Shown here: positions 2,567 through 59,465 of the stretch, one piece after another
Layout: each line of letters starts with the position of its first letter
Position numbering within the stretch: the first letter of the stretch is position 1
Origin: Lachnospiraceae bacterium
GTDB taxonomy: Bacteria; Bacillota_A; Clostridia; Lachnospirales; Lachnospiraceae
DNA length: 64,000 bases
Reading direction: 5' to 3'
NCBI GenBank assembly: GCA_017626435.1
Contig: JAGAIR010000010.1
Coordinates: forward strand, 1-64,000
Translations under genes and position numbers: made by a program
Notes under the pieces: generated by a model
What the model saw: the letters and a program-made list of their open reading frames with translations, nothing else
The model's database searches: none
What the model was told of the DNA's origin: nothing

Positions 2567-3898
2567 ATGATGAAATTTATTGTAGACGAAAACTTAGTAT
2601 CTTTCAAGTTGTTGGAGCAAAAAATATTTGATTATGTTTGTGAACTGGGGCGTCTAATCACGCAGCAGGTGTTGGAAAACTACGACAAGGAGCTGGCACA
2701 AGGCCGAGACAAAAAACTTTATCGTGGAAAAGGAAGACGAAAGACCAGCATCAAAACCGTGTACGGGGAAGTAGAATACAATCGCACTGTGTACCGGATA
2801 AAGACAGAGCAAGGTGAGACGGCATATGTCTATCTGCTGGATGAAGCCATGCAGATGGATAAAATAGGTCTGATCTCCACGAATCTTGCAGAGAAGATAG
2901 CAATGACTGTAACAGAGGCACCCTATCGTGTAGCATCTGAAACAATCAGCAGTACCTGCGGACAGACCATCAGTAGCGGCGGAGTCTGGAACATGATGCA
3001 ACGTCTAGGGGAACGAATCAGTAAAGAAGAAAAGCATGCGGTAAAAGAGATGAATGCAGACCAAACCAAAGGTGAAAAAATCATACCGGTATTGTTTGAA
3101 GAAATGGATGGTGTATGGCTCCATATGCAGGACAGCAATCATAAGAAGATGAAGAAACAGGAAATGAAAGTATTTACCATGTACGAAGGCTGGGATGCAG
3201 AAAAAGAAAAGCAAGACCGAAGTACCCTTGTCGGAAAGACAATGCTGGCAGGGATGGAATCCAGTACTGAATTTCATGAGAAAAGGGAAACACTGATTGA
3301 AAGCAAATATAATGTGGAGGAAATCCAACAAAGGATACTGAACGGAGATGGAGGGAGCTGGATTAAAGAGCCATACGATCCGGATACAATCTTCCAGTTA
3401 GACCGCTATCATATCTATCAGGAAATCCTGCGAAAGATAGGCGATAAAGAAGCACAAAAAGAAGCAAGAGAACTATTTGAAGCAGAAAAGATCGAGGAAT
3501 TGCTGGAGTTTATTACCGTGTATGCAGACAGTGTGGAAAACCCGGATAAAACGGATAAAAGAAGCAAAAATGCGAGAGAACTGCACACATATTTAAAGAA
3601 CAACCGGGAAGGACTGTTGCCCTACCAGAAACAGGGGAAAAAGATACCTGAACCCCGGGAAGGTATCCTGTATAAAAATATGGGAGTATAGGAGTCCCAG
3701 AACTGTACTGTGATCACCATGAGAATGAAGCATCGTCGGATGAGATGGTCAAAAGAAGGCGCAAACAATCTGGCGAAAGTGTTGTACCGGAAGGAAAACA
3801 AAGAACTTTGCAGTACAATAGAGAGATATACAGACGGTCTGATATTTACTGCACAAATGAAAGAAATCGTAGAAACATTGAGTGCAGCAAAAACTCCG
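2567..3898 (+). pseudogene. ISLre2-family (UPF0236) transposase broken by an amber codon and lacking its C-terminus
   Basis: The protein matches ISLre2-family transposases throughout, including the family block around NMG..ESQNCTVITMRMKHRRMRW. The frame starts at ATG 2567 (AAGGAG at 2556-2561) and stops at a TAG at 3689-3691, then continues in the same frame to 4015. Family members usually have glutamine at the stop position, so a single CAG-to-TAG change is the simplest cause. After LSAAKTP (about 3898) the transposase C-terminus is absent, and the frame runs directly into the N-terminus of a phage-type integrase. The element is therefore dead twice over. No internal reinitiation site with a good ribosome site is seen. 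Confidence 0.85.
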
Positions 3899-5042
3899 AC
3901 AAAGAATCATAAAGGAAGGGAATTGGGTAAGGGGTTATATCAGCGGAAGGATGGGCGATATGAGGCGAGAGCAAAGGTAAATGGGAAAATATTGATATAT
4001 TTGGAAGAAATCTGAGGGAGCTAAAGAAAAGATTTGAGGAAGAAAAAGAGCTGGCAGCCAATCGTCTGGAGGCTAGAATCAACAGATTAACACTTAGTGA
4101 ATGGTTTGAAAATTATAAAGTACCTTATGTAAAAGAAACGAGCGTGTTTCCGATGCGGAGTAAATTTTATAATTCATTTGGAAAACGTCTTGGAGACATG
4201 CGTCTGGTGGATATCACTAATATAGATGTTCAGAATGTAATCACACAGATGAACAAAGAGGGAAAGGCAGCTTCCACTATGCGTGAGGCATTGGGAAGAA
4301 TGAGGGAATGTATGGAATCAGCAAAAAATAACAGGCTGATTCCTATTAATCCCTGTTTTGAAATTAATGTGCCGTGGGAGAACAGGCAGGTTAAAAGGAG
4401 GTTTCTTTCTCCGGAAGAACAGAATACATTTTTGAAAACAGTAGAACATAACTGGTATAAGGAGATGTTTTACATTATGTTCTTAACAGGGATGAGAATC
4501 GGAGAAGTGGGCGGTCTTATGTGGAGTGACATTGATTTTGATAATAAATGTATCCACATAAATCGCTCTTTGTCATGTCAATATGAGTATGGAAAGAAGA
4601 TGCTCCGTCTGACAGAGCCTAAAACTCATAATTCATATCGGAAGATTCCATTTTTTGGGGAGGCAGAGGAAATGTATTTGTCCCAGCAGAGAAAAGTGAA
4701 AGAGCTGAAAAAAGCACTTGGTTCAAGATGGAGAGGGGAAGAAGGATGTGAGGATTTAGTTTTTGTGACAGAGAGCCGGTTGTTTTTGAAGATATGTATC
4801 CTCACGCAATCCGACATACATTCTGCAGCCGATGTTTTGAGGCAGATATGCAGCCCAAAGTAGTACAGAGTATTATGGGGCATCAGCACTATAGTACAAC
4901 CATTGATATTTATACCCATGTTACTGATGCAAAGTTTGAGGAAGAAATAGAGAAATTCGGATTGGCATTGGAGGAAGAACCAACAGAAGAAGCGGAGGAT
5001 ATGGAGGAAGGGGAGGATACTGGTTTTGGCTTGATGATGTGA
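3899..5042 (+). pseudogene. Tn916-type tyrosine recombinase (integrase), frameshifted and internally deleted
   Basis: The N-terminal DNA-binding part (GRELGKGLYQRKDGRYEAR) is fused in frame to the dead transposase. A one-base loss in the A-run near 3986-3990 moves the gene to another frame, which carries the core-binding domain and the catalytic Arg (TGMRIGEVG) and Lys (EPKTHNSYRK) up to 4863. Around 4770 about 50 codons are missing and the frame changes again; the rest (4780-5042) holds HAIRHTFCSR, GHQHYSTT and the Tyr nucleophile in IDIYTHV. All catalytic residues survive but are spread over three frames, so the gene cannot make an active enzyme. It probably marks a former conjugative transposon of which nothing else remains here. 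Confidence 0.85.
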
Positions 5043-5165
5043 TGGGTGATTCCAATAAAAAAACATATATCTTTGAACATAAGAAAAGTATATATTCTAT
5101 CTGGTATAAAAGAGGCAGACAACAGGGATATTGCTTGTACTTTAAATAAAAAAGGGGACTGTGTC

Positions 5166-5228
5166 AATTATATCAGAAAATAAGTCTTTACTTCGCCACA
5201 AAGTGATAGTATAATTATATCAGAAAAT
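5166..5228 (+). promoter_or_regulatory. promoter of the Phd/ParE pair, bracketed by 16-bp direct repeats
   Basis: A TTTACT -35 box (5187-5192), a 17-bp spacer and a perfect TATAAT (5210-5215) form a good SigA-type promoter. Identical 16-bp repeats AATTATATCAGAAAAT lie at 5166-5181 and 5213-5228, 47 bp apart. The second overlaps the -10 box. Toxin-antitoxin operons are normally repressed by the antitoxin or the complex binding at the promoter, so these repeats are the likely operators. Confidence 0.55.
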
Positions 5229-5300
5229 TGATATGATAGTTTGCTGCCAGAAATGGCACATAAAAGGAAACTATAATGAAGAATGAAGGGAGAGAGGATT

Positions 5301-5567
5301 ATGCTGATAAAAGCATCTGCAGCACTGAGAAATGATTATGCAACGATATCTGCATTGGCAAAAGAAACAAAAGAGCCCATATATATAACCAAAAATGGGG
5401 AAGGTGACTTAGTATTAATGAGTATAGATGCCTTTGAAAAGCGGGAACAGATGTTGCAGTTAAGAGCAAGGGTACTGCAGGCGGAGCAGGAACGAATAGA
5501 TGGAGAGCCGACAATCAGCGTGTCAGAGGCGAGAAAGCGCTTAAGGGAGAGAGCAAGTGAAGTGTAA
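5301..5567 (+). CDS. Phd/YefM-type antitoxin
   Basis: This 88-residue protein has the Phd/YefM fold signature: an N-terminal DNA-binding part (RNDYATISALAKETKEPIYITKNGEGDLVLMS is the typical pattern, split here as residues about 10-41) and a charged C-terminal helix that wraps the toxin. It should neutralise the ParE-like protein encoded next and repress the operon. An in-frame ATG at 5283 exists, but GGAGAGAGG at 5289-5297 points to the ATG at 5301. The end overlaps the toxin gene by 11 bp, the usual layout for coupled translation. Confidence 0.85.
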   Translation: MLIKASAALRNDYATISALAKETKEPIYITKNGEGDLVLMSIDAFEKREQMLQLRARVLQAEQERIDGEPTISVSEARKRLRERASEV

Positions 5568-5865
5568 AGTGGAAATTCTGCCTTCCGCATGGGAGGATTT
5601 GAAAAAAATAGAAGATTATTATATCCTGCAGTTTGATGTGCAGACAGCATTGAAAGTCAGCGATCATATTTTAGACACCATTGAACGATTGGAACAGTTT
5701 CCAGATTCCGGTTCGGCTACACCGGATGATTGGCTCGATGATCAGGGATACCGGATGATAATCTGCAAAAAGCATGTTGCCATTTACCGGGTTATTCATG
5801 GAACAGTGTATATATATCATATCGCAGATACGCAGACGGAATACACAAAATTATTTTATCAGTAG
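5557..5865 (+). CDS. RelE/ParE-type toxin
   Basis: The 102-residue protein begins with the ParE-family pattern (VEILPSAWEDLKKIEDYY) and ends with the family's core strand motif (RMIICKKHVAIYRVI...YIYHI). Members inhibit DNA gyrase (ParE) or cleave mRNA (RelE); which applies cannot be told here. It starts at a GTG at 5557 inside the antitoxin's last codons, with AAGGGAGA upstream as ribosome site. The gene is full length and no disabling change is seen, so this pair may be active. It sits in a cluster of decayed mobile genes, a common place for such modules. Confidence 0.85.
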   Translation: MKCKVEILPSAWEDLKKIEDYYILQFDVQTALKVSDHILDTIERLEQFPDSGSATPDDWLDDQGYRMIICKKHVAIYRVIHGTVYIYHIADTQTEYTKLFYQ

Positions 5866-5906
5866 TCGCAACAAGCTTCTATGGGAGAAGAAAGGAGGGA
5901 ATATCC

Positions 5907-7993: not shown

Positions 7994-9166
7994 ATGAACA
8001 ATTTCATTTTTGAAAATACGACAAAGGTTTATTTTGGAAAGGGTTGCGTGAAAGAATATCTAGCGTGCCTGATAGGAAAGTATGAGCGAAATATCATGCT
8101 CTGCTATGGGGAAGGTTCGATTAAGAAAAATGGAATCTATGAGGAAGTAATGGAAATTCTTGCTTCAACTGGGAAGGAGATTTATGAATTTTCTGGTATT
8201 ATGCCGAATCCTACATATCGGAAAGTGCTGGAGGGGGCAGAAGTGGCCAGAGAAAATCAAATTGGTTTGATTCTTGGGGTTGGTGGTGGTTCTGTGATGG
8301 ACTGCTGTAAGGCGATTTCCATTGCGGCAAGATATGACGGAAATGTATGGGAAGACTTTTGGGAAAGACCTGGCATCATTGACTTTGAACCATTGCCTTT
8401 AGGTGTCATTGTCACAGTATCAGGAACCGGAAGTGAGTGCAATGGTGGTGCGGTAATTACCAATGAGGAGAAAAAGGTAAAGGGTGGGCGGGATTATCCA
8501 CAGTGTAATCCGGAGTTTGCCCTTTTAGACCCATCATACACCTACAGTGTTCCAAAGTTCCAGATGGTTTCTGGTGGTTTCGATACGTTATCCCATATTA
8601 TGGAGACTTATTTTAGTGAGCCCGATGGGGATAATGTTTCCGATGATCTTGCAGAGGCACTTATGAAAAATGTCATTCGCAATCTGCGGGTAGCAATCCG
8701 TAATCCAGAGGACTATACTGCTAGGAGTAACCTGATGTGGGATGCTGCCATGGCGGAAAATAGATTGCTCAAATTGGGTAAGAGGACAGATTTTCAATGC
8801 CACCAGATGGAACACCAGTTGGGGGCATATACGGGCTGTAACCATGGTGCAGGTCTGGCAGTCTTGCATCCAGTTTATTATCGGCATATTTACAGAGATG
8901 GATTGGTAAAATTCAAACGTTTTGCCATAAACGTATGGGGAATCTCCGTTGAGGGAAAGAGCGAGGAAGAGATTGCCAGAGCCGGTGTAGAGGCATTGGC
9001 GGAGTTTATTCGGGAAATTGGTCTTCCTGTTACGTTGCGGGAACTGGGTGTGGATGAGTCCGTGGATTTGCGGGCGGTTGTGGATTCCTGTGTTTCCATG
9101 CAGGGGAGTTACAGGAAAATGACACAGGATGAAATTAATAAAATTTTTCAGGAGGTGCAAGATTAA
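7994..9166 (+). CDS. iron-containing alcohol dehydrogenase (BDH/YqhD type)
   Basis: A 390-residue group III alcohol dehydrogenase that reduces aldehydes with NAD(P)H. The N-terminal Rossmann-like half carries the nucleotide motif GVGGGSVMDCCKAI (about residues 95-108). The metal site is formed by Asp and His in FDTLSHIMETYFS, His in HQMEHQLG and His in GCNHGAGLAVLHP. Length and order match butanol dehydrogenase/YqhD proteins. GGAAAGGAAG precedes the ATG. Together with the flavodoxin and DkgA-like reductase downstream, the layout recalls the E. coli yqhD-dkgA aldehyde-detoxification pair, an inference from neighbourhood. Confidence 0.9.
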   Translation: MNNFIFENTTKVYFGKGCVKEYLACLIGKYERNIMLCYGEGSIKKNGIYEEVMEILASTGKEIYEFSGIMPNPTYRKVLEGAEVARENQIGLILGVGGGSVMDCCKAISIAARYDGNVWEDFWERPGIIDFEPLPLGVIVTVSGTGSECNGGAVITNEEKKVKGGRDYPQCNPEFALLDPSYTYSVPKFQMVSGGFDTLSHIMETYFSEPDGDNVSDDLAEALMKNVIRNLRVAIRNPEDYTARSNLMWDAAMAENRLLKLGKRTDFQCHQMEHQLGAYTGCNHGAGLAVLHPVYYRHIYRDGLVKFKRFAINVWGISVEGKSEEEIARAGVEALAEFIREIGLPVTLRELGVDESVDLRAVVDSCVSMQGSYRKMTQDEINKIFQEVQD

Positions 9167-9255
9167 AACAAGTTAAAAATCATATGTTATAGATGCTGCC
9201 GATATGGTGGCAGAATGGCTAAATAATATCCAAAAAGAAAGGTAAGGTGGTTTCA

Positions 9256-9888
9256 ATGAAAGAATGGAGGACAAAAGTATTTCGTGTCGTATCAGTTATC
9301 CTTATGTTTGCGATGGTGGTATCGGTTGTAAATGTAAACACAGTAAGTGCAAAGGTGAAGAAAAAGAAAAATATAGTGGTGCTTTATTTTTCTGCGACAG
9401 GAACGACAAAAGGTGCTGCGAAAAAAATTAAAAAGGCGACAAAAGGTAAGCTGGTTGCCATTAAGCCGGCTGAACCATATACAGAGGAAGATCTTGACTA
9501 TGGCAATGACGGTAGTCGTGTAACAAAGGAACATGAATCTGCAAAAACTCCTGCTGCGAGTAAGGTGCGCCCTGAAATTTCAAACTTAAATGCTATAAAG
9601 AAAGCTGTCAGAAAAGCAGATGTAGTCTATATCGGATATCCGATTTGGTGGGGAGAAGCACCGCATATTGTATATAGTTTTGTAGAAACGGTAAGCCTCA
9701 AGGGAAAAACAGTAGTTCCTTTTTCCACGTCAATCAGTAGTGGTCTGGGAAACAGTGGGAAACATTTGAAGACCAGGGCAAAGATATCATCTAAGACAAA
9801 ATGGCTCAAAGGGCGTAATTTTTATGAGATTCCTTCCCAGAAAAAGGTAAACAAATGGGTGAAAGGATTGATATCCGTCCACGGATAG
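9256..9888 (+). CDS. secreted or membrane-anchored flavodoxin-like protein
   Basis: This 210-residue protein starts with a signal-type segment (about residues 7-33, ending near VSAKVKKKK) and continues with a flavodoxin fold. The FMN phosphate loop is YFSATGTTKGAAKKI, and the second flavin loop is YIGYPIWWGEAPHIVYSF. It would carry FMN outside the membrane or at its outer face and act as an electron carrier or quinone/flavin reductase. A GTG at 9247 is in frame, but AAGGTGG at 9244-9250 suits the ATG at 9256. It lies between the alcohol dehydrogenase and the broken aldo-keto reductase in the redox cluster. Confidence 0.82.
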   Translation: MKEWRTKVFRVVSVILMFAMVVSVVNVNTVSAKVKKKKNIVVLYFSATGTTKGAAKKIKKATKGKLVAIKPAEPYTEEDLDYGNDGSRVTKEHESAKTPAASKVRPEISNLNAIKKAVRKADVVYIGYPIWWGEAPHIVYSFVETVSLKGKTVVPFSTSISSGLGNSGKHLKTRAKISSKTKWLKGRNFYEIPSQKKVNKWVKGLISVHG

Positions 9889-9930
9889 AACCAGACCAGG
9901 AAGAGAAAACGTTGAGAAATGGAGAAAACA

Positions 9931-10799
9931 ATGAAGGAGAGATTATTAGGGAAGGATTTGAAGGTATCTGCGGTGGGTCTTGGCTGCATGGGATTTTCCC
10001 ATGCCTATGGGGCACCGACAGAGCGAAAAGAGGCGATCGATAGGCTGCGGCAGGCAGCAGAGATGGGATACACTTTTTTGATACAGCAGAGGTATATGGG
10101 ACGATTAAGGACTCTCATCAAAATGAGATGCTGGTGGGGGAGGCATCCTTAAAGAGGTTGAACACGGATTATATTGATCTATATTATCAGCACCGTGTGG
10201 ACCCGGAGGTTCCCATTGAGGAAGTGGCAGGAGTTATGGCAGAGCTGATGCAGGAAGGAAAAATAGTTCATTGGGGGCTTTCTGAGGCAGATGAGGAAAC
10301 GATTCGTCATGCTCATGCCGTCTGTCCGGTAACAGCGATACAGAATCGCTATTCCATGATGGCGAGATGGTATGAAACATTATTTCCGGTATTGGAGGAA
10401 CTGAACATCGGCTATGTGGCATTCTCGCCTCTGGCAAATGGTTTTTTATCGGGCAAATATGGAAAAAATGCAGAGTTTGACAAGGTATATGGTTACCGGA
10501 GCATGATGCCGCAGTTCACCAGCGAGGGAGTGGATAAGAACCGGGAACTGCTGGCGTTACTTGACAGGATGGCTGAAGAAAAAAATGCAACTCCCGCACA
10601 GATTTCTCTTGCCTGGATATTGTGTAAAAAGCCGTATCTGGTGCCAATACCAGGCAGCAGGAAAGCAGAACGCTTGCAGGAAAATGCAGATGCAGCAGAT
10701 GTTATATTGTCGGCTGGTGAGGTGGCAGCACTGGATGAGGCACTGGATGCTATGGAAATGTCCGAGGTGTTTGGTGGTTCAAAGGTAAAACAGAGGTGA
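9931..10799 (+). pseudogene. aldo-keto reductase, frameshifted and internally deleted
   Basis: The N-terminal part (LGKDLKVSAVGLGCMGFSH) is a typical aldo-keto reductase start. In the T-run near 10074-10080 one base is missing; in the shifted frame the sequence reads DTAEVYG, which holds the catalytic Asp and Tyr, up to MLVGEA. Then about 60 codons that should carry the catalytic Lys are gone, and the frame rejoins at [20 protein letters not shown]. The C-terminal half to 10799 looks intact, including the [13 protein letters not shown] cofactor motif. Two independent lesions mean no active enzyme. The start was chosen by GGAG at 9921-9924. Confidence 0.85.
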
Positions 10800-10801
10800 A
10801 A

Positions 10802-10924
10802 AGGAGAGAGCAGCTTGTTGCTGGAGATTATACAGTGGGCAGGTATGCGGCTCTTTATGGAATGGATGATCAGGGAATGGCAACCAATAAAACGGAGGCA
10901 CAGGAACTGGCAAAGAAATTATGA
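10802..10924 (+). other. short open remnant, unidentified
   Basis: A frame that is open from just after the broken aldo-keto reductase ends at a stop at 10922-10924, with a C-terminus reading NKTEAQELAKKL. It has no start codon or ribosome site and resembles the tail of a larger deleted gene. I cannot assign it. Confidence 0.2.
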
Positions 10925-11001
10925 ATCGTTTGATGTGTTTCGGCGATGTTATAACAGGTGTCATGAAATAACAGATAAAAATAAGATAGGAGAGGTTTAA
11001 A

Positions 11002-11856
11002 ATGAGTAATCAAATGTATGTGAAATTAAATAATGGAGTGGAAATGCCGATGGTGGGAATCGGTACATTTATGCTAAGTCCGGATGAGGCAGAGACTTCT
11101 TGTGTAAGCGCATTGCAGGATGGATACCGGCTGATTGATACCGCAAACGCCTATGTCAACGAAAAAGCAGTAGGGCGTGCCATGAAAAAATCCGGGATTG
11201 CCAGAAAGGATATATTTCTGGAGACCAAGCTGTGGCCAGCTTTTTACAATCAGTCTGATGCAGTGGAAAAGACGTTGCAGCGACTTGACACAGATTATAT
11301 AGACCTTTTGCTGATTCATCAGCCGGCAGGCGACTATATCGCAGGATACCGCCGGATGGAAAAAGCGTATAAAGAGGGAAAAGTCAAGGCAATTGGCCTG
11401 TCTAATTTTAACGAGGAGCAGATTAGGGAAATATTAAGTGTCTGTGAAGTGAAACCGACGGTATTGCAGACAGAAACCCATCCGTATTCGCAGGAAAAGG
11501 GATTAAAGGATTTTCTGGAAAAAGAAGAGATTGTAATTCAGGCGTGGTATCCATTGGGACATGGCGATGCAGCATTGATTCAGGAACCTGCATTTTCAAA
11601 ATTGGCTGAGAAGTATGGCAAAAGCAATGCGCAGATTATCCTTCGCTGGCACGTGCAGACAGGAAACGTGGTAATTCCTGGTTCAAAAAATCCAGACCAC
11701 ATCCGTGACAATTTTGATCTGTTTGATTTTGAACTGACGGCAGAGGAGATGAAGGAGATACAGGCACTTAATCAGGATAAAAGATATTATACCAGTACAC
11801 CGGAACTGCTGAAAAGTTATGCAGAGATGGTACCGCCTGTGGACGAACAGAAATAA
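11002..11856 (+). CDS. aldo-keto reductase (2,5-diketo-D-gluconate reductase/DkgA type)
   Basis: A complete 284-residue AKR5-like reductase using NADPH on aldehydes, 2-oxoaldehydes or keto sugars. The catalytic tetrad is present: Asp and Tyr in LIDTANAY, Lys in ETKLWP, His in LLLIHQP. The C-terminal cofactor motif is VIPGSKNPDHIRDNFDLF. GGAGAGG precedes the ATG. Unlike its broken neighbour at 9931-10799, which belongs to a different AKR group, it is intact. With the Fe-alcohol dehydrogenase it suggests reduction of reactive aldehydes such as methylglyoxal, although the substrate is not shown by sequence. Confidence 0.9.
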   Translation: MSNQMYVKLNNGVEMPMVGIGTFMLSPDEAETSCVSALQDGYRLIDTANAYVNEKAVGRAMKKSGIARKDIFLETKLWPAFYNQSDAVEKTLQRLDTDYIDLLLIHQPAGDYIAGYRRMEKAYKEGKVKAIGLSNFNEEQIREILSVCEVKPTVLQTETHPYSQEKGLKDFLEKEEIVIQAWYPLGHGDAALIQEPAFSKLAEKYGKSNAQIILRWHVQTGNVVIPGSKNPDHIRDNFDLFDFELTAEEMKEIQALNQDKRYYTSTPELLKSYAEMVPPVDEQK

Positions 11857-12019
11857 ATTAATATATTGTTTGTGCTACAGGAAGGAGACCGGAGGATGGA
11901 TATTAGAAAACTCATCCGATGATGTCTATGTCTGGTACTCAGAGATTTAGCCAGAAAAGACAGTAGAGATTGTCAATCATCTGAAAGCGGGAATAGAGCA
12001 AAATAAGGAGGAAAATCCG

Positions 12020-12658
12020 ATGAAAGTTTTAATGGTCAATGGCGGACCACATGAGAAGGGATGTACCTATACAGCGTTGAAGGAAGTAGCAGATACCCTG
12101 GCAAAGGATGGGATTGATTCAGAGATTGTCTGGATTGGAAATAAGCCCGTTGGCGGTTGTATTGCCTGCAAAGCATGTGTAAAAAAGGGAGAGTGTGTGT
12201 TTGATGATATTGTCAATAAGGTTAGAGAAAAGGCATATCGGGCAGATGGTTTTATTTTCGGAACACCGGTTCATTATGGTGCTGCTTCCGGAAATATGAC
12301 CGCTTTTATGGACAGACTATTTTATTCCGAGCTGTGCGGTAATGGCAATAAGGCATTTTATATGAAACCGGCTGCGGCTGTGATTTCTGCCAGAAGGGCT
12401 GGGACAACGGCAACTTTTGACCAGATGAATAAGTATTTTACCATCCAGGAGATGCCGGTAGTGTCTTCCCGTTACTGGAATATGGTACATGGGGCATCGC
12501 CGGAAGATGTAAAGAAAGACTTAGAGGGTCTGTATACCATGCGTGTGCTGGGAAGAAATATGGCATATATGCTGAAGTGTAAAGAGGCTGCCGAGATGTC
12601 TGGGATATCTTTGCCGGAGCAGGAGCCAGCTGTTTTTACAAACTTTATCCATGATTAG
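12020..12658 (+). CDS. flavodoxin-fold NADPH-dependent FMN reductase
   Basis: A 212-residue cytoplasmic flavoprotein of the NADPH-dependent FMN reductase/iron-sulfur flavoprotein group. The FMN phosphate loop is NGGPHEKGCTYTALKE at the N-terminus. GGCIACKACVKKGECVFDD (about 49-67) is the cysteine-rich stretch found in this group, and FGTPVHYGAASGNMTAFMDR is the second flavin loop. AAGGAGG sits 8 bp before the ATG. It probably reduces quinones, azo- or nitro-compounds or passes electrons to a partner. The preceding 11857-12019 holds a start-less frame running into this gene, perhaps a gene tail, which I cannot identify. Confidence 0.85.
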   Translation: MKVLMVNGGPHEKGCTYTALKEVADTLAKDGIDSEIVWIGNKPVGGCIACKACVKKGECVFDDIVNKVREKAYRADGFIFGTPVHYGAASGNMTAFMDRLFYSELCGNGNKAFYMKPAAAVISARRAGTTATFDQMNKYFTIQEMPVVSSRYWNMVHGASPEDVKKDLEGLYTMRVLGRNMAYMLKCKEAAEMSGISLPEQEPAVFTNFIHD

Positions 12659-52922: not shown

Positions 52923-53696
52923 CTAAGCCAGTTCTGCGATACGGCTTACGCCAACGAAAATTTCAGAAATCCGATACCAGGTTGGAAAATCTACAACACC
53001 GGTCTGAGGCAGATTAAATATTTTTTGGAAGGTTCTTACTGCATCGGCTGTTTTTTCTCCATAAATGCCATCCTCTGCTACTTTTGGAATGAGAGGATAT
53101 CCTTTGGAAATTACATTTAACTGATGCTGCATCTGACGTACTTTATCGCCGATAGAGCCAACAGTCAGATCATATCCCGGCCAGGAGGAAGGAATACCCG
53201 AGATTTCATCAGAAGAATTAATATAAACAGAATCTCCGTAGAAGGTGCGGAGAATTTCAATTGCGGAGTATCCCTGGTCTCCCAGATATTTAGAATCCCA
53301 CTGCCGCATCCAGTTCGGACAGGAAACCTGTCTGCCATCACAGTATTGTGTAAAAAGCGGCTGGGTAATATTTGGTCTGGAGATGAAATTGGCAAAAATG
53401 GTATCTACTGCTTCCGAAATACTTGCATAGATATTACGTCCGGAAATCCATTTCTGGTCGTAAGCAGTTGAACTGGTAATGGTAAAATCGTAGCCCTTAT
53501 TGCGATACCATTCTGTGTAGACGCGGTTTAAGGTAATGGACTGAATGGCAAGAATATTTGCATAAAGTGTTGCTTCAGGCCAGGTAGCATAGATTTCGCT
53601 GGATGCTACATTTTTGATGTAGTCTTTGTATTTTACATAATAGTTTTTTGCCCTGGAGTCAGAAGGTGGTCCGTCATGGACGATTACATATTCGGG
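52923..53696 (-). pseudogene. sleC: 3' half of the split sleC gene (SpoIID-like catalytic and PG-binding domains)
   Basis: On the minus strand the sequence from codon GAA (53691-53693) to the stop at 52923 encodes the C-terminal 256 residues of spore cortex-lytic enzyme SleC. It begins EYVIVHDGPP, continues with the SpoIID-like lytic transglycosylase domain (DYIKNVASSEIYATWPEA, containing the probable catalytic Glu; TAYDQKW; LFTQYCDG) and ends with a PG_binding_1 domain (VGSIGDKVRQMQHQLN...IFNLPQTGVVDF). No start codon exists: a TAA lies at 53727-53729 and no ATG, GTG or TTG occurs before homology begins. The Met at 53309 is internal. The missing N-terminal half is at 58890-59399. Confidence 0.9.
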
Positions 53697-53708
53697 GGCT
53701 GGTGTACG
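53694..53708. repeat. left attachment site of the sleC element (attL)
   Basis: The core GGGG (53694-53697) is followed by G and then CTGGTGTACG (53699-53708). The last ten bases are an inverted copy (9 of 10) of CGCACACCAG at the right end. Sequence to the left is sleC; to the right is element. Confidence 0.75.
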
Positions 53709-53815
53709 TTTAGTTTGAGTTAAATATTATATTGAGGTGGAAATCTCCCTTATAGTCTGCTAGAATAGTTTTGAAAAAGGGATGCGCATATGTGTGCGCA
53801 GGAATGGAGAGAAGC

Positions 53816-55102
53816 ATGAAAGAACGAACCAAAAGAAAGGAAATCCGCTGGGCAAAGCTTGATAACACAGCAAATCTGTTTCCTGTGATCGCCACAGAGA
53901 GCATGACGAATGTGTATCGGATTTCAGTGACTCTGACAGAGGAAATTGATAAGGAATTGCTGCAGGAGGCTTTGGTTCGGATTCTCCCTTGGTTTGATTC
54001 GATGAATGTGCGGATGCGCACGGGAGTATTCTGGTATTATTTTGAGACCAACCGGAAGGGTGCTCCGCTGGTGACAGAGGAGAATGATTATCCCTGCCGT
54101 TATATAGAACCCCATACCAACCGAAATTATCTGTTCCGGGTGACTTATTATAAATGTCGTATCAATTTGGAGGTGTTTCATGTACTGGCGGATGGGATGG
54201 GCGGAGTAACTTTTTTGAAAGAGCTGACTTACCAGTATCTTCGTCTGAAATATCCTTCACTCTGCAAGGTGACAGGAGATGAACTATCAGATACCACTTC
54301 TCTGAATACGGAGGACAGTTATCTGAAAAATTATAAAAAGAGCCAGCCCAGGGGGTATAAATCGGAACCGGCAGTGCATATCAAAGGGGAAAAACTGCGG
54401 ACAGGAGCTCTTGGAGTGATTCATGGTTATATGTCTGTGGAACAACTCAGGCAGGTTTCCAGAGAGAGAGGAATCAGCATCAACGAATACCTGGCAAGTG
54501 TATATACCTACAGTATTTACAAAGAATATTTACATGGAGCGGTTTCCAAGAAGCCTGTTGTTACCTGTATTCCGGTAAACCTGCGACCCTATTTTGAATC
54601 TCTCACCACGAGGAATTTTTTTGCTATGGTCAGTGCTGTTTTTCATCCTGAGAAAGAGGAGTATACTCTGGAAGAGGTGACAGAGATCGTAGTAAAAAGC
54701 CTTAGGGAACAGATTAACAAGGAGCATCTGGAAAAATTGTTTTCCTATAATGTCTCTAATCAAAAAAATCTGGTTTTGCGTGCGGTACCGCTGCTTATCA
54801 AAAAAATTGCCATGCGCTGGGTTTATTATTCCAGTGCAAAGGCAACTACCACTACCATGACCAATATTGGAGCAATGCAGGTGGACGAGCCATATCAGCC
54901 GTATATCAGACGATTTTGTGCTATGCTTTCGGTATCAGCGGGACAAAATGTAAAAGGAACCATCTGTTCCTATAAAGATGAACTGGTATTTACCTTTAGT
55001 TCCATACTGCGGGACGCTTCCATACAAAGGAGGTTTTTTAAAACACTGGTGCAGGATGGAATTGATGTAACAATAGAGAGTAACGGAGTGTATTATGAAT
55101 AA
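53816..55102 (+). CDS. condensation/alcohol acetyltransferase-like protein
   Basis: A 428-residue protein with the fold of CoA-dependent acyltransferases and NRPS condensation domains. The active-site motif HxxxDG is seen as FHVLADGMGG (about residue 120-130), with a single leading His rather than HH. There is no carrier-protein partner here, so a small-molecule or lipid acyltransferase (PapA/alcohol acetyltransferase group) is likelier than peptide synthesis. An ATG at 53804 is possible; GGAGAG at 53806-53811 favours 53816. A weak promoter (TGGAAA, 17 bp, TAGAAT at 53761-53766) lies inside the element. The end overlaps the next gene by 8 bp. Confidence 0.75.
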   Translation: MKERTKRKEIRWAKLDNTANLFPVIATESMTNVYRISVTLTEEIDKELLQEALVRILPWFDSMNVRMRTGVFWYYFETNRKGAPLVTEENDYPCRYIEPHTNRNYLFRVTYYKCRINLEVFHVLADGMGGVTFLKELTYQYLRLKYPSLCKVTGDELSDTTSLNTEDSYLKNYKKSQPRGYKSEPAVHIKGEKLRTGALGVIHGYMSVEQLRQVSRERGISINEYLASVYTYSIYKEYLHGAVSKKPVVTCIPVNLRPYFESLTTRNFFAMVSAVFHPEKEEYTLEEVTEIVVKSLREQINKEHLEKLFSYNVSNQKNLVLRAVPLLIKKIAMRWVYYSSAKATTTTMTNIGAMQVDEPYQPYIRRFCAMLSVSAGQNVKGTICSYKDELVFTFSSILRDASIQRRFFKTLVQDGIDVTIESNGVYYE

Positions 55103-55775
55103 ATGTAAAAGATGCGGGGTTTCTGTTGCAGATGATATAGCGGTCTGTCCCCTGTGTGATATGGTACTGCAGGAAAGAAGAGGATTATCAGAAGAAACAG
55201 CGGACGAATACCCTGATGTGGGTTTAAAGACAAGAAAGCTCAAACAGATCAGCAGGATTTGTATGTATTTTGCTTTGCTGATAGAGGCGGTACTGGTGAT
55301 AATTAATTATTACACCTATTCATATTCCTGTACCTGGTGGTCAGCCATCAGTGGAGGAGCAATCATTTATTTGATTTTAACAGTACGGGGGATTCTGAAT
55401 AAAAGAACCGGGCATATCCGTAAGATTTATCTTCAGGTGATTGGTCTGATTGCTTTGATCATCTGCATTGATATCACTCTGGGATTCAGCGGCTGGTCAT
55501 TGGAAGTTGGACTGCCCTGCGTGATTTTTGGAATTGATCTGACCATTGTCCTCTGTATGATCATCAATTATGCAAACTGGCAAAACTATGTGATCATGCA
55601 GTTATTTACGGTATTGTTAAGTGTTCTGGATTTGATATTTTATCTGTCAGGAATTGTTCAGGGTATGATTCTGCCATGGGTTGTACTAGGAATATCGGTT
55701 TTTCTCTGGACGGGAACTCTGATTATTGGAGACAGGAAGGCGGCCAATGAATTAAAGCGAAAATTTCACGTATAA
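55095..55775 (+). CDS. zinc-ribbon polytopic membrane protein (DUF6320-like)
   Basis: A 226-residue protein opening with a zinc ribbon (CKRCGVSVADDIAVCPLC, residues 3-20) and followed by about six membrane segments (from about 50 to 215). I recall such proteins beside acetyltransferase/esterase gene pairs in Firmicutes, sometimes annotated DUF6320, but the function is unknown. It overlaps the acyltransferase gene by 8 bp with GGAG upstream, so the two are translated together. It is likely the membrane anchor or partner for that enzyme. Confidence 0.7.
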   Translation: MNKCKRCGVSVADDIAVCPLCDMVLQERRGLSEETADEYPDVGLKTRKLKQISRICMYFALLIEAVLVIINYYTYSYSCTWWSAISGGAIIYLILTVRGILNKRTGHIRKIYLQVIGLIALIICIDITLGFSGWSLEVGLPCVIFGIDLTIVLCMIINYANWQNYVIMQLFTVLLSVLDLIFYLSGIVQGMILPWVVLGISVFLWTGTLIIGDRKAANELKRKFHV

Positions 55776-55826
55776 TCTTATAGCATAGAAATGTCCAGAA
55801 AGGATGGGGAATGAAAGAGGGTACAG

Positions 55827-56774
55827 ATGAAAGAAAAGATTAGCTTAAAGGCAAAAATAGTCCGGGATGTGATTAAATTTTCTACTTCCCAGCATATTAT
55901 CGGACCGAAGATACAGGACGGAACCTTTCGGAAAAAGCTGGTGGAACCTGCCTGGCACTGTCCGGATGGATATTTGTGTATGCCCATCCAGATGCATCAT
56001 TTCGAAATGGAACTGCTGACACCTCCCCAGGAGGATTGTGGGGAAGTGGTTTTACAGCTTCACGGCGGCGGTTATATTGGAAAAATGAGGAATGTATACC
56101 GTGATTTTGCCGTTCTTTACAGTCAGATGAAAGGATACCGGAAAGTTCTTTCTGTTGATTACCGTGTGGCACCGGGAAATCCCTATCCGGCAGCACTGGT
56201 GGATGCGCTGGCGGCATATCAGTGGCTTTTGGATGTGGGTTATCGGGGAAATCAGATCATTTTGGCAGGTGATTCCGCAGGAGGTGGACTGGCATTGGCG
56301 TTAAGCCTTTATCTGCGGGATAACAGGCTGCCTCTTCCAAAATGTCTGGTCATGATGTCACCATGGACAGATCTGACTGCCTCTGGTGATTCTTATACGG
56401 AGAATTATGAGAAAGACCCTCTCTTTGGAAATACCAGAGAGAGTATGATATATAATGGGGAATATGTGGCAGACCATGATCCAAAGGATCCATATATGTC
56501 TCCTCTGTTTGGAGATTATACAGGGCTTCCTCCGATGCTGTTTCAGGTTGGCAGTATAGAAATGCTGTTGAGTGATACACTTTCTGCGGCGGAGAAAGCA
56601 AAGAAGGCCGGATGCGAAGTGAGACAGACAGTTTATGAAGGAATGTTTCATGTGTTCCAGATGGGACTGATGCGGATGCCGGAATCGGAAGAAGCATGGA
56701 AAGAAGTGGAGGAATTTATCAGCCAGCATACGTCCCTGACTGCAAAAGGTTCTGAATCAGCAAATAAAGAATAA
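55827..56774 (+). CDS. alpha/beta hydrolase, hormone-sensitive-lipase type esterase
   Basis: A 315-residue HSL-family esterase. The oxyanion motif is LHGGGYIGK, the nucleophile elbow is GDSAGGGLALAL, the acid is probably in the DTLSAAEKAKKAG region, and the His is in YEGMFHVFQMG. No signal peptide, so it is cytoplasmic. It is the third gene of the cargo operon; an acyltransferase and an esterase together suggest making and removing an acyl ester on a shared, unknown substrate. A perfect palindromic terminator follows. Confidence 0.85.
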   Translation: MKEKISLKAKIVRDVIKFSTSQHIIGPKIQDGTFRKKLVEPAWHCPDGYLCMPIQMHHFEMELLTPPQEDCGEVVLQLHGGGYIGKMRNVYRDFAVLYSQMKGYRKVLSVDYRVAPGNPYPAALVDALAAYQWLLDVGYRGNQIILAGDSAGGGLALALSLYLRDNRLPLPKCLVMMSPWTDLTASGDSYTENYEKDPLFGNTRESMIYNGEYVADHDPKDPYMSPLFGDYTGLPPMLFQVGSIEMLLSDTLSAAEKAKKAGCEVRQTVYEGMFHVFQMGLMRMPESEEAWKEVEEFISQHTSLTAKGSESANKE

Positions 56775-56779
56775 GATAG

Positions 56780-56817
56780 AAATAAAAAACACATTAAGCT
56801 TAATGTGTTTTTTATTT
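56780..56817. terminator. 38-bp perfect palindrome between cargo and recombinase genes
   Basis: The two 19-base arms meet at 56798/56799 (centre TTAAGCTTAA) and are perfectly complementary, with A-rich left and T-rich right ends, so it should end transcription in both directions. It lies only 9 bp before the ATG of the small recombinase-operon ORF, leaving no room for a separate promoter. Recombinase expression therefore needs read-through, antitermination, or a promoter overlapping the palindrome. Confidence 0.75.
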
Positions 56818-56826
56818 GAGGATTTT

Positions 56827-57009
56827 ATGGAAGAAGAAAGATGGAAAGAGGATTTTGAAGCGGCAGGAATGCTAAACGGTTATCAGATTTATGTAAGCTA
56901 TGCTAAGGAGGGGCCGGACTGGGAAGAGGCGATGGCATTATATCAGGAAGCAAAAAATAGTGTGCTGTATCAAAATCTGGCTGCAATGGGAAAGGAGGAG
57001 GAAGAGTGA
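56827..57009 (+). CDS. small acidic protein preceding the recombinases
   Basis: A 60-residue charged protein (MEEERWKEDFEAAG at the start, a run of Glu at the end), probably helical. GAGG at 56818-56821 lies 5 bp before the ATG. Its TGA overlaps the GTG of the first recombinase (GTGA), so it is translationally coupled to it. I do not recognise the family. From position it may be a recombination directionality factor or a regulator of the recombinases, which is inference only. Confidence 0.55.
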   Translation: MEEERWKEDFEAAGMLNGYQIYVSYAKEGPDWEEAMALYQEAKNSVLYQNLAAMGKEEEE

Positions 57010-58160
57010 TCCGGTGTGGAATGTATCTCCGGCTTTCTCGGGAAGACGGGGGAGAAGAGAGTAATAGTATACAAAACCAGCGTCTTTTGATCCAGCAGTT
57101 TATCCGGCAAAAACCGGATATGTTTCTGACTGGAGAGTGGGTGGATGATGGATGGTCCGGAAGCCGTTTTGACCGTCCCGGTTTTCAAAAGATGATGCAT
57201 GCAGCTTATGATGGACAGATTGATTGTATTTTAGTGAAGGATCTATCCCGGTTGGGAAGGGAGTATATACAAACCGGATATTATCTTCAGGAAATTTTTC
57301 CAAAGCTGGGAATCCGTTTGATTGCCATTTCAGACCAATATGACAGCATACAGAGTGAGTTTATGGAACAATCTCTTTTAATGCCGGTATTAAATCTGAT
57401 GAATGATGCATATTGCCGGGATATTTCCCAAAAGGTAAGATGGCAGCAGCAGACAAAACGGCAGATGGGAGAATATATCGGTGCATTTGCAGGATATGGA
57501 TATCAGAAGGCGGAGGATAATGTCCACCGTCTGGTTATTGATGAGCAGGTGGCAGAGATTGTAAAAGGAATTTACTGGCTTCGTCTGGGAGGCATGGCGG
57601 CAGAACGGATAGCACAGGTTCTGAACCGGCAAAAAATCCCTTGTCCCAGAGAATATAAGAGACAGATGGGCAGCCAGTACCAGTCTGGATTTGACAGAGC
57701 AGAGGAGGCGCGCTGGTCGCCACTCTCCGTAAGACGTATCCTGCACAACAGGATGTATACCGGAGCTATGCAACAGGGAAAGGATAGAAAGATCAGCTAT
57801 AAATTAAATGTCAGGAGAAAGCTGCCGGAGAAGGAATGGATCTGTGTGGAGGACAGGGTGCCGGTTTTGATACCGAAATGGGTATTTAAAAGAGTAGAAC
57901 TGCTGGAAGAGCAGCGGATTCGATGCCGGAAAGGAAAGGTATTCTGCAATCTGTGGTCAGGAATCGGAAATCATCTGACAGAGCAGGTGGAATGGGGAGA
58001 AGAATATTTATTTTCTTATCTTTGCCGGTATTACCTGAAGGAGAAGGAACCTGTGGAGGAATGGATGAGACGGTTGTTTCTGGTGCTGTTTTTTCAGAAA
58101 ATTGAGGTGTGTCCAGAGAGAAAGTCCATTCTGATAAAGACGGTCTGGAGGAAGTACTGA
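57006..58160 (+). CDS. serine recombinase 1 (lacks zinc ribbon)
   Basis: A 384-residue site-specific recombinase. The catalytic resolvase domain (1-150) opens CGMYLRLSREDG with nucleophile Ser 11 and Arg 9, and contains VDDGWSGSRFDRPGFQKM and KDLSRLGREY. The Recombinase DNA-binding domain follows (about 165-275: GYGYQKAED...ERIAQVLNRQKIPCP). Large serine integrases normally continue with a Cys4 zinc ribbon and coiled coil, to over 450 residues; here the C-terminus lacks the Cys pairs. The GTG start has AAAGGAGGAGG upstream. Its TGA overlaps the second recombinase's ATG, so both are made together. Confidence 0.88.
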   Translation: MIRCGMYLRLSREDGGEESNSIQNQRLLIQQFIRQKPDMFLTGEWVDDGWSGSRFDRPGFQKMMHAAYDGQIDCILVKDLSRLGREYIQTGYYLQEIFPKLGIRLIAISDQYDSIQSEFMEQSLLMPVLNLMNDAYCRDISQKVRWQQQTKRQMGEYIGAFAGYGYQKAEDNVHRLVIDEQVAEIVKGIYWLRLGGMAAERIAQVLNRQKIPCPREYKRQMGSQYQSGFDRAEEARWSPLSVRRILHNRMYTGAMQQGKDRKISYKLNVRRKLPEKEWICVEDRVPVLIPKWVFKRVELLEEQRIRCRKGKVFCNLWSGIGNHLTEQVEWGEEYLFSYLCRYYLKEKEPVEEWMRRLFLVLFFQKIEVCPERKSILIKTVWRKY

Positions 58161-58924
58161 TGCAGCAGGTGGGAATTTATGCAAGGATTTCGGTTGAGCA
58201 TGGCAATGAGAAAGATAACAGCATTGAAAATCAGATCTTATTGGCAAGAACCTGGATGCAGAGGCATTCTCAACAGGGAACAGAGCTGGAGGAATACCGG
58301 TGTTATATTGACCAGGGTTATAGTGGGACCGGCTTTACACGTCCGGGATTTCTACAGATGATAAAGGACGCCGAGGAGCATAGAATCCAGTGTATTGTCT
58401 GTAAGGACTATTCCAGACTGGGCAGGGACTATCTGAAAACGGGAGAATATATAGAAAAGCTGTTTCCTCTATGGGGAATCCGTCTGGTATGTATCAGTGA
58501 TGGTTATGATAGTTTGACTGGACTTCCGGGAAGTCTGGAGGGAAGCATGAGAAATCTGATGAATGAGTGGTATGCAAAGGATATCGGACGAAAAGTACAT
58601 CTGGTCAAACAGCAGAAGAAGAAGGAAGGAAATTATCTGGGGAGTGTTGCACCATATGGATATGAAATAATATGGCAGAATGGAAAAAGATTGCTTATAG
58701 AGGAGAAAAAAACCATGGCAGTTGTCCGATGGATCTGTAAGAGGAAACAGCAGGGGCACAGTTTAGAGGAAATCCAGGTACAATTGCAGGAGCGGGGAAT
58801 CAATCCGCCGGGAGAGTATCGGAAAAGTGGAGAGATGTTTCAGAATCCAGACAAGGTAAAAAAATGGGATACGTCCACCTTGCGCCATTTTATCGCACAC
58901 CAGAGGGGATTACCACACGGCTAA
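58160..58924 (+). CDS. serine recombinase 2, 3' end overlaps attR
   Basis: A 254-residue recombinase with a complete catalytic domain (VGIYARISVEHG with Ser 11; YIDQGYSGTGFTRPGF; KDYSRLGRDY) and most of the Recombinase domain, ending abruptly after TLRHFIAHQ. The stop lies 16 bp beyond the GGGG core, so the last codons are host sleC DNA read on the opposite strand. In the excised circle the same frame would cross the joined core and end at a TAG about 16 bp further, with a different tail. The zinc ribbon and coiled coil are absent. GGAGGAAG precedes ATG 58160, which overlaps the first recombinase's stop. Confidence 0.85.
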   Translation: MQQVGIYARISVEHGNEKDNSIENQILLARTWMQRHSQQGTELEEYRCYIDQGYSGTGFTRPGFLQMIKDAEEHRIQCIVCKDYSRLGRDYLKTGEYIEKLFPLWGIRLVCISDGYDSLTGLPGSLEGSMRNLMNEWYAKDIGRKVHLVKQQKKKEGNYLGSVAPYGYEIIWQNGKRLLIEEKKTMAVVRWICKRKQQGHSLEEIQVQLQERGINPPGEYRKSGEMFQNPDKVKKWDTSTLRHFIAHQRGLPHG

Positions 58925-59399
58925 GTACGATCTCACCGGTTTCACTAACGGTTTTGATTTCATTTTCTGCTATTTTGGGAGGATAATCTCCATATAGCGT
59001 ATGAGGTGGGATGACAAACAGTTCTTCACTGGTTCCCAGTGCATCTTTCATCGGCATTAATACTATATTTTGCAGTGCCGTTTGACCGGAGAGGATTTCC
59101 GCACCGGATATTTCAACCGATTCATAACCGGGAGCCGTAATCCTGATATTAAATACAGAATATGGCTGCTGGGCACTTGGCTCCATACTGTATTCCAGTG
59201 GCGGTGCCGGCAGGGAGATCTCTTCGCTTTGGCCGTTTACATCGGTAGTGACTTCTTCCAGTATATCTTCTGGCTGGCTGTTATCGAAAATTTGTATCGT
59301 TGCTCCGGCAATGGCACGGGAACCAAGGATAGAATTGACATTGACCTGTAACAGACCGGTATCCGGGCGGTCCTGCTGCATAGAAAGTGGATTTGACAT
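58890..59399 (-). CDS. sleC: 5' half of the split sleC gene (pro-region)
   Basis: The 169-codon frame encodes the N-terminal part of SleC: the pro-region, a transthyretin/carboxypeptidase-regulatory-like beta domain (LLQVNVNSILGSRAIAGATI to SGQTALQNIVLMP), and the linker with LYGDYPPKI, which is conserved in clostridial SleC. It ends ...SRVVIP at the GGGG core (58905-58908) and then adds SGVR and a stop from element DNA. So the integrated locus makes only an inert pro-fragment without the catalytic domain. AAAGGATTTTCT precedes ATG 59399; a longer frame to 59426 lacks a ribosome site. The last 35 bp overlap recombinase 2 in antisense. Confidence 0.88.
   Translation of the reverse strand: MSNPLSMQQDRPDTGLLQVNVNSILGSRAIAGATIQIFDNSQPEDILEEVTTDVNGQSEEISLPAPPLEYSMEPSAQQPYSVFNIRITAPGYESVEISGAEILSGQTALQNIVLMPMKDALGTSEELFVIPPHTLYGDYPPKIAENEIKTVSETGEIVLSRVVIPSGVR
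58894..58908. repeat. right attachment site of the sleC element (attR)
   Basis: CGCACACCAG (58894-58903), A, and the core GGGG (58905-58908). Joined to the left end, the excised circle would carry CACACCAG-AGGGGG-CTGGTGT, a nearly symmetric attP. Sequence to the right is sleC. Confidence 0.75.
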
Positions 59400-59438
59400 A
59401 GAAAATCCTTTCTGTTTGGGAAACAATATATTTCATAT

Positions 59439-59465
59439 TATAGTATGAGGACAGAGAGGATGTGT
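59439..59465 (-). promoter_or_regulatory. SigK-like sporulation promoter upstream of sleC
   Basis: On the minus strand, AC (59465-59464), a 16-bp spacer and CATACTATA (59447-59439) match the mother-cell SigK pattern AC-N16/17-CATANNNTA; the -10 also resembles SigE boxes. It would start RNA about 30 bp before the sleC ATG. The motif is short, so chance is possible. No other feature was seen in 59466-59615 except a small TTGTGCC/GGCACAA hairpin at 59549-59570 before dut. Confidence 0.35.

Follow-up and report, generated by a model that had tools for sequence, protein, structure and literature searches.

Several genes of the sporulation programme are reported to be interrupted by DNA elements, namely sigK, spsM, spoVFB, spoVR, gerE and yabG (PMC4191935, PMC5595907, PMC10747680, PMC5025042, PMC5553647). 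In this report we describe a comparable interruption of sleC, the gene for the spore cortex-lytic enzyme SleC, in a 64,000-nucleotide stretch of DNA from a Lachnospiraceae bacterium (assembly GCA_017626435.1, contig JAGAIR010000010.1, positions 1 to 64,000; "the window"), where a segment of 5.2 kb with two serine recombinase genes, R1 and R2, lies between the two parts of the gene. No report of an interrupted sleC was found among titles, beginnings of abstracts and passages of the open-licence literature, a body that excludes subscription papers, preprints and supplements.

The skin element in sigK of Bacillus subtilis and Clostridioides difficile resembles the sleC segment in its serine recombinase and its exact in-frame join, but its target is a regulator, it is prophage-like and one recombinase acts (PMC5025042, PMC4191935). 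In C. difficile the skin recombinase is always present, and a small directionality factor made under sigmaE limits excision to the mother cell (PMC5025042); a candidate counterpart here is an open reading frame (ORF) of 68 amino acids (aa). SPbeta in spsM of B. subtilis also restores a mother-cell enzyme gene at sporulation, but it is an active prophage; it leaves only in the mother cell and so keeps its place in the spore (PMC4191935). The gin element in gerE of Bacillus cereus ATCC10987 is, like the segment here, not derived from a prophage, encodes multiple serine recombinases, interrupts a late gene of the mother cell and has an inverted repeat around a short core, and its rearrangement needs a small extra factor (GirX, 42 aa); it differs in gene, in host group and in size (28.6 kb vs 5.2 kb), and its three recombinases, of which GirC acts together with GirX, are 22-26% alike (PMC5595907), whereas R1 and R2 are ~38% identical and shortened. 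The yin element in yabG of Clostridium botulinum is another interruption of a clostridial sporulation gene, and because YabG processes pre-pro-SleC in C. difficile, it touches the same germination pathway; unlike the present segment it is prophage-like, with one recombinase that has a zinc ribbon, a 14-bp repeat and demonstrated excision (PMC10747680).

Structure of the interrupted sleC gene

We think it likely that the segment of 5.2 kb belongs to the skin-type gene-intervening elements and would be excised to restore sleC. A sequence-only reading of the window had proposed that exact removal of such an element restores the gene, and this proposal is well supported by comparison, as the junction recurs in nine genomes, eight relatives have no other sleC match, the gene is under purifying selection, and recombinases and element ends are conserved.

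Both parts of sleC lie on the minus strand (Table 1). The frame of the N-terminal (N) part starts at 59399, runs for 164 residues to SRVVI, reads a Pro codon (CCC) and then leaves the gene through SGVR and a stop at 58890; from the shared Pro codon the C-terminal (C) part continues from 53696 to 52923. Both ends of the segment carry a G-run core, GGGGG from 53694 and GGGG from 58905 on the plus strand, 5,211 bp apart. Joining core to core gives 164 + 1 + 256 = 421 residues with none gained or lost, and the register of the joined product (...SRVVI-P-EYVIVHDG...; join-spanning peptide VVIPEYVIVHDG, deduced from sequence) matches that of the intact relative L105. Over residues 1-256 of 257, and so from its very beginning, the C part aligns with the solved pre-pro SleC 9h68 (E 1.1e-102), and a Pfam/NCBIfam scan found SpoIID and PG_binding_1 domains in it. 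The half-frames thus belong to one SleC-like protein, as the sequence-only reading had said, and its coordinates, its join without frame change and its shared core all held.

Inside the 5,211 bp are six main forward ORFs, for an acyltransferase-like protein, a DUF6320 protein and a hydrolase (together the cargo genes), the 68-aa protein, R1 and R2. No phage-like genes besides the recombinases were found when the six ORFs were compared with Pfam and NCBIfam (PHROGs was not searched), and the segment is far smaller than SPbeta. It has the marks of skin-type elements, with an insertion inside a gene of the sporulation programme, a recombinase adjoining the junction and a shared core at which recombination would restore the frame. 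Short arms around the core form an inverted repeat (CGTACACCAG ... CTGGTGTGCG in the window). The R2 frame terminates within sleC past the core, so the last residues of R2 would change on excision.

Table 1 Features of the interrupted sleC locus (positions in the window)
Feature	Position	Strand	Remarks
sleC 3' part	52923..53696	-	SpoIID-like domain + PG_binding_1
Left core GGGGG (plus strand)	53694..53698		Pro codon CCC on the sleC strand
Left element arm CTGGTGTACG	53699..53708		Near-complement of the right arm
Cargo, acyltransferase-like protein	53816..55102	+	NCBIfam acyl_WS_DGAT well under cut-off, nothing matched in Pfam; frame open from TTG 53771
Cargo, DUF6320 protein	55095..55775	+	
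Cargo, alpha/beta hydrolase (Abhydrolase_3)	55827..56774	+	
68-aa ORF	56803..57009	+	Overlaps the R1 start; candidate directionality factor
R1, 384-aa serine recombinase	57006..58160	+	Resolvase + Recombinase domains, no zinc-ribbon match
R2, serine recombinase of up to 271 aa	58109..58924	+	Resolvase + ~half of Recombinase domain; frame crosses the right core into sleC
sleC 5' part	58890..59399	-	Residues 1-164 + shared Pro, then SGVR-stop within the element end
Right element arm CGCACACCAG	58894..58903		
Right core GGGG	58905..58908		
-10-like box CATACTAT	59440..59447	-	48 bases 5' of the sleC ATG; resembles sigmaE/K CATANNNT

Recurrence of the interruption in relatives

Relatives were scanned with one genome per species, and the best 80 of at least 558 were labelled L098-L177. 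A cut at the same codon, hereafter site A, was found in eight further genomes, G331, L098 (= G442/G443), L099 (= G441/G444), L100, L101, L102, L104 and L106, among which L104 is a cultured strain, Butyribacter intestini TF01-11. All three genomes scanned from the genus of G331 have the C part in a short frame of 269-293 residues. A 4-bp core in one genome could be chance, but the recurrence of the junction counters this, since CCC-GAR-TAY stands on the C side in 9/9 loci and ATC-CCC on the N side in the 6/6 where the contig reaches (contigs of L099, L100 and L102 stop before the N part). All nine split loci, vs 11 of 70 intact ones, use CCC for the Pro at the cut; these loci are related, and no p-value is attached. 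The order of N part, R2, R1, hydrolase, DUF6320, acyltransferase and C part is kept as far as contigs reach, except in L104 with its one recombinase, and element length is 4,905-5,213 bp in the six loci with both ends. The inverted repeat is still recognisable where R1 is 48-60% identical to that of the window; changes in the element ends appear paired across 5 kb in G331 and L101 and are unpaired in L098 and L104.

Uninterrupted sleC, for which the sequence-only reading had suggested looking in related genomes, was found in relatives such as L103, L105 and L108, where the uncut gene is directly followed by those for the hydrolase, DUF6320 and acyltransferase proteins (8880-11810, 9121-12200 and 2992-5887, respectively). 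The same three genes directly follow sleC also in L146 and L153, and the acyltransferase is 62-74% identical to those of relatives. Within the stretches compared, no cargo genes were seen near sleC outside the 19-row clade described below, and no remnants of R1 or R2 were found in the intact relatives that carry cargo genes. To account for the two positions of these genes, within the element or downstream of sleC, we considered tandem duplication with loss, or excision with reinsertion. The wider gene order (dUTPase, sleC, a diacylglycerol-kinase-like gene, queA, ppx and ppk, labels read from sequence) is the same in the window, L098 and G331.

In a tree of 83 C parts, the site-A rows fall within a 19-row clade (98/89) together with three rows cut elsewhere and seven without a visible cut. 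Seven site-A rows form their own clade (99/93), L106 stands apart and L102 lies beside the uncut L108 (97/86). The tree is compatible with a single origin followed by losses and also with repeated gain, and a single gain would require several losses. Divergence was correlated between the sleC C part and the cargo genes (r 0.54-0.62 over 13 genomes), between the C part and R1 (r 0.47, P 0.03; 7 genomes) and between the two recombinases (r 0.84; 7 genomes). From these comparisons, sleC and the element have probably travelled together for long.

Function of the split gene and its host

At E 1e-5 the C part is the sole sleC match in each of the eight split relatives (16 genome entries, two genomes listed twice), a count that includes incomplete assemblies (G441 80%, G331 90% and G442 93% complete). 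As synonymous change is near saturation, pN/pS was taken only as the ratio of the observed nonsynonymous and synonymous proportions; it was 0.04-0.17 for the C part in seven usable split pairs vs 0.16-0.18 in two intact pairs (the window/L101 pair was left out; L101 has an early stop), and 0.20-0.52 for the N part in six split pairs vs 0.24-0.31 in two intact pairs. By this measure purifying selection on the split C part is as strong as in intact copies, which, together with the sole match, speaks for excision and against the gene being dead.

SpoIVA was found in seven of the eight split relatives and was missing in G441. With a sigmaK model, which also matches in 11 of 14 control genomes, 3 of 12 genomes passed the cut-off (G449, G450 and G452, of which only G449 is split), G446, G447 and G448 came near it, and G441 and G445 gave a first-half piece only. 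These partial sigK-like genes lie at C2:50252 in G441 and C30:1315 in G445, both genomes with split sleC. The sigK-like gene of G451 (C23:4354-11758) is in two pieces ~7 kb apart, as in skin.

The window lies on contig C4 of an assembly of 3.4 Mb in 66 contigs with a reported contamination of 8.77%, and this assembly has a second, intact sleC on C19. Compared with G002 and G006, both of the assembly's genus, the C19 copy is 95-96% identical, and compared with five others 79-86%, vs 66-70% to all seven for the window copy; queA is likewise doubled, and six genomes of the genus match its C65 copy at 84-89% and its window copy at 72-74%. On these two genes, sleC and queA, the assembly is most likely mixed, with the window contig from another genus than the rest, and we place the source of C4 elsewhere in the Lachnospiraceae, in a genus close to L098, G331 and Butyribacter. 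As the C4 copies fall outside the genus of the assembly, the intact C19 sleC would belong to another organism. The sequence-only reading had held that a second intact sleC would speak against the element; such a copy is present, but it is assigned by sequence to another organism than the window contig, so this objection was set aside.

Possible mechanism and alternative explanations

Recombination of the two G-run cores would be the work of R1, probably helped by R2 and perhaps by the 68-aa protein in the role of a directionality factor; it would free a circle and rejoin sleC exactly. In C. difficile, sleC needs sigmaK (PMC3738446). As SleC is a late mother-cell product, the mother cell would be the likeliest place of excision; this cell dies, and the forespore would retain the element. 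The 68-aa protein could confine excision as the small factor does in C. difficile skin. We infer excision and its mother-cell restriction by analogy with sigK, spsM, gerE and yabG and from the sigmaK-dependence of C. difficile sleC, and what we say of R2, of the 68-aa protein and of the timing and cell type of excision is put forward in the same spirit. The motif CATANNNT, which we take to be the sigmaE/K -10 consensus, occurs 36-55 bases 5' of the sleC start in five of six split genomes, against a background of 1.6 per kb in the window; no such box stands at -36 to -55 in four intact relatives (L107 has one at -60), a poor comparison because their start codons were located with little certainty. 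This placement gives slight support to mother-cell control of sleC.

Several results weigh against regulated excision of a long-inherited element. The circle junction was found in 0 of 397 genomes and 0 viral contigs, which is a weak test, as the circle pattern fits the ends of the window, L101 and L106 and not those of G331, L098 and L104, and few site-A genomes were sampled. No mother-cell promoter was recognised before the 68-aa, R1 and R2 genes, the 68-aa ORF is clear in only three of the six elements looked at, and the sigmaK-model search gave no clear sigK in G331 and G442. Divergence of sleC correlated weakly with that of R2 (r 0.34, P 0.14) and not with that of the housekeeping neighbour dUTPase (r -0.12, 7 genomes; 0.44, P 0.14 in the five split ones), so joint vertical descent is not firm.

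Excision might instead be infrequent and unregulated, as in an ordinary mobile element, and only the few cells that by chance lost the element would give germinable spores, a form of bet-hedging. This fits the sequence data equally well. Elsewhere in the family, most relatives of R1 are of full size and they often come in pairs, the recombinases have no recognised sporulation promoter, and the 7 uncut rows (3 with cargo genes nearby) and 3 rows cut elsewhere in the 19-row clade could reflect losses. However, frequent loss in growing cells should break up the supported clade of seven site-A rows, which holds no uncut row, and we regard bet-hedging as unlikely. It is much less probable still that sleC is a pseudogene in lineages that no longer sporulate or that use another enzyme, with the insert incidental. 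Sporulation genes are reported as missing in rumen and oral Lachnospiraceae and spo0A as lost in some gut ones (PMC11170972), and the unclear sigK of G331 and G442 and the partial one of G441 and G445 point the same way; but the pN/pS values of both parts, SpoIVA in seven of eight relatives and the lack of another SleC match stand against a dead gene. In L101, R1 is shortened (304 aa), and the SleC C part meets a stop ~12 codons short of its end; this early stop also favours a pseudogene. The sequence-only reading had named decay of the element beside a still-split sleC as contrary evidence, and L101 shows these two changes, which may represent decay.

The two parts could also be made separately and act as a two-piece protein without excision. 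Both are open, and in four of nine loci a start codon lies upstream of the C part (G331, L102 and L106) or no more than six codons into it (L104, codon 6), which counts against a need for excision too; one of them, G331, has a stretch like a ribosome site. But all nine split loci have an in-frame stop 4-85 codons ahead of the C part, and the other five have no ATG, GTG or TTG before codon 30 of the C part, the first after the stop being codon 30 in L101, 59 in L098 and L099, and 130 in the window and L100. As start positions are not conserved and the cut falls inside a continuous conserved SleC stretch, we give a two-piece protein hardly any credence. Excision of a skin-type element remains our preferred and likely explanation of the split.

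Further cut sites and their recombinases

With the C part, 98 genomes (own and relatives) were searched, and with an intact SleC, 200 family genomes of at least 90% completeness, of which at least 131 with a match at E 1e-15 were listed. The 36 cut sets examined fall at five sites in sleC (A-E), apart from five unplaceable fragments. A serine recombinase ORF was present in the fetched stretch in 25 of 36 sets: 7/7 at site A, 5/5 at B (around TEWYRN), 1/1 at C, 12/15 at D (around CPNWMTQWG), 0/3 at E and 0/5 among the unplaceable fragments, which lie at or near contig ends. Among the 131 genomes listed, at least 16 have sleC interrupted and a serine recombinase adjoining the cut or close to it (that of the window, G237, G040, G050, G149, G188, G233, G032, G036, G055, G100, G103, G140, G239, G262 and G273; only one side of the cut was seen in G050, G188, G239 and G273). 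A script that looked for in-register cores giving back the SleC consensus located them in 3/3 cases at site B (11-12 bp), 1/1 at C (11 bp), 7/10 at D (5-8 bp), 4/7 at A and 0/1 at E. The script did not place the true core in L098, L101, G237, G055, G036, G140 and L153; those of L098 and L101 were read from junction alignments and that of L153 separately, and G237, G055, G036 and G140 are not counted as shown. In L153 (site E) the core is 11 bp, in frame on both sides, and a phage-integrase-family gene adjoins. Phage portal, head or packaging genes lie near the cut in L166 and L146 (chosen proteins scanned).

Phage-like DNA cuts sleC in L166 (4450-8001) and L146 (6577-8001), and a head-like protein of L166 also matches CdiA_C at its end. 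Site-D cargo is metabolic, transport or regulatory and not phage (10 chosen ORFs of 4 elements). G032, whose sleC is cut at site D, also has a full-length SleC-like paralogue (C29:23935-25146), 42% identical to that of L105. In a class-wide sample, SleC matched in 27 of 157 genomes with no further cut evident, at an E of 1e-20 that could miss short pieces.

Among the 31 recombinases compared, those of one site resemble each other and those of different sites do not, with a mean identity of 54% within B, 45% within D and 37% within A (a mean that mixes R1 and R2 and includes one unlike 525-aa ORF of G237), vs 20-22% between sites. The serine and KD.SR.GR motifs are retained in both R1 and R2. 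Of the domains of large serine recombinases, R1 keeps Resolvase and nearly the whole Recombinase domain, and R2 Resolvase and about half of Recombinase. In scans of chosen proteins, the zinc ribbon (PF13408) had no match in five site-A proteins of the window, G331 and L104 (two at E 0.001, three at E 0.01), and matched at E 0.01 in 6/6 proteins of sites B, C and D, two of them under Pfam's cut-off. In 397 family genomes, the relatives of R1 listed were 59% (G331), 52% (G237) and otherwise ~42-48% identical, mostly in frames of 530-610 residues; nine in viral contigs were 44-47% identical. Among those compared with ~1.5 kb of flank on each side, sleC adjoins only the R1 of the window and of G331, and many have a second recombinase next door. 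By these comparisons the site-A pair seems to descend, with shortening, from full-size recombinase pairs. In large serine recombinases the C-terminal part that is lost here has a hand in deciding whether the enzyme integrates or excises, so it is reasonable to guess that the pair can only excise.

Discussion

These results invite a wider reading, which we offer tentatively and with more doubt than confidence: production of SleC by excision of DNA may have arisen repeatedly, through three serine recombinase lineages of several members each at sites A, B and D, a fourth found once at C, and tyrosine-integrase or phage elements at E, and the site-A element may have ceased to be mobile DNA and become an inherited control device of the host, with recombinases reduced to excision and with neighbouring host genes inside it, so that its recombinase decides whether a spore can germinate. 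An insert costs little if it is gone in time when the gene is needed only by a dying cell. Five sites with unlike recombinases suggest that control of SleC by excision is of benefit, or that sleC is an unusually safe harbour.

Gut members of the Lachnospiraceae spread as spores. As far as the accounts cited above go, the other interrupted genes (sigK, spsM, spoVFB, spoVR, gerE and yabG) serve spore making, and gerE and yabG affect germination indirectly, whereas the target here is the spore-opening enzyme itself. In Lachnospiraceae that germinate well, sleC may be annotated as absent or broken.

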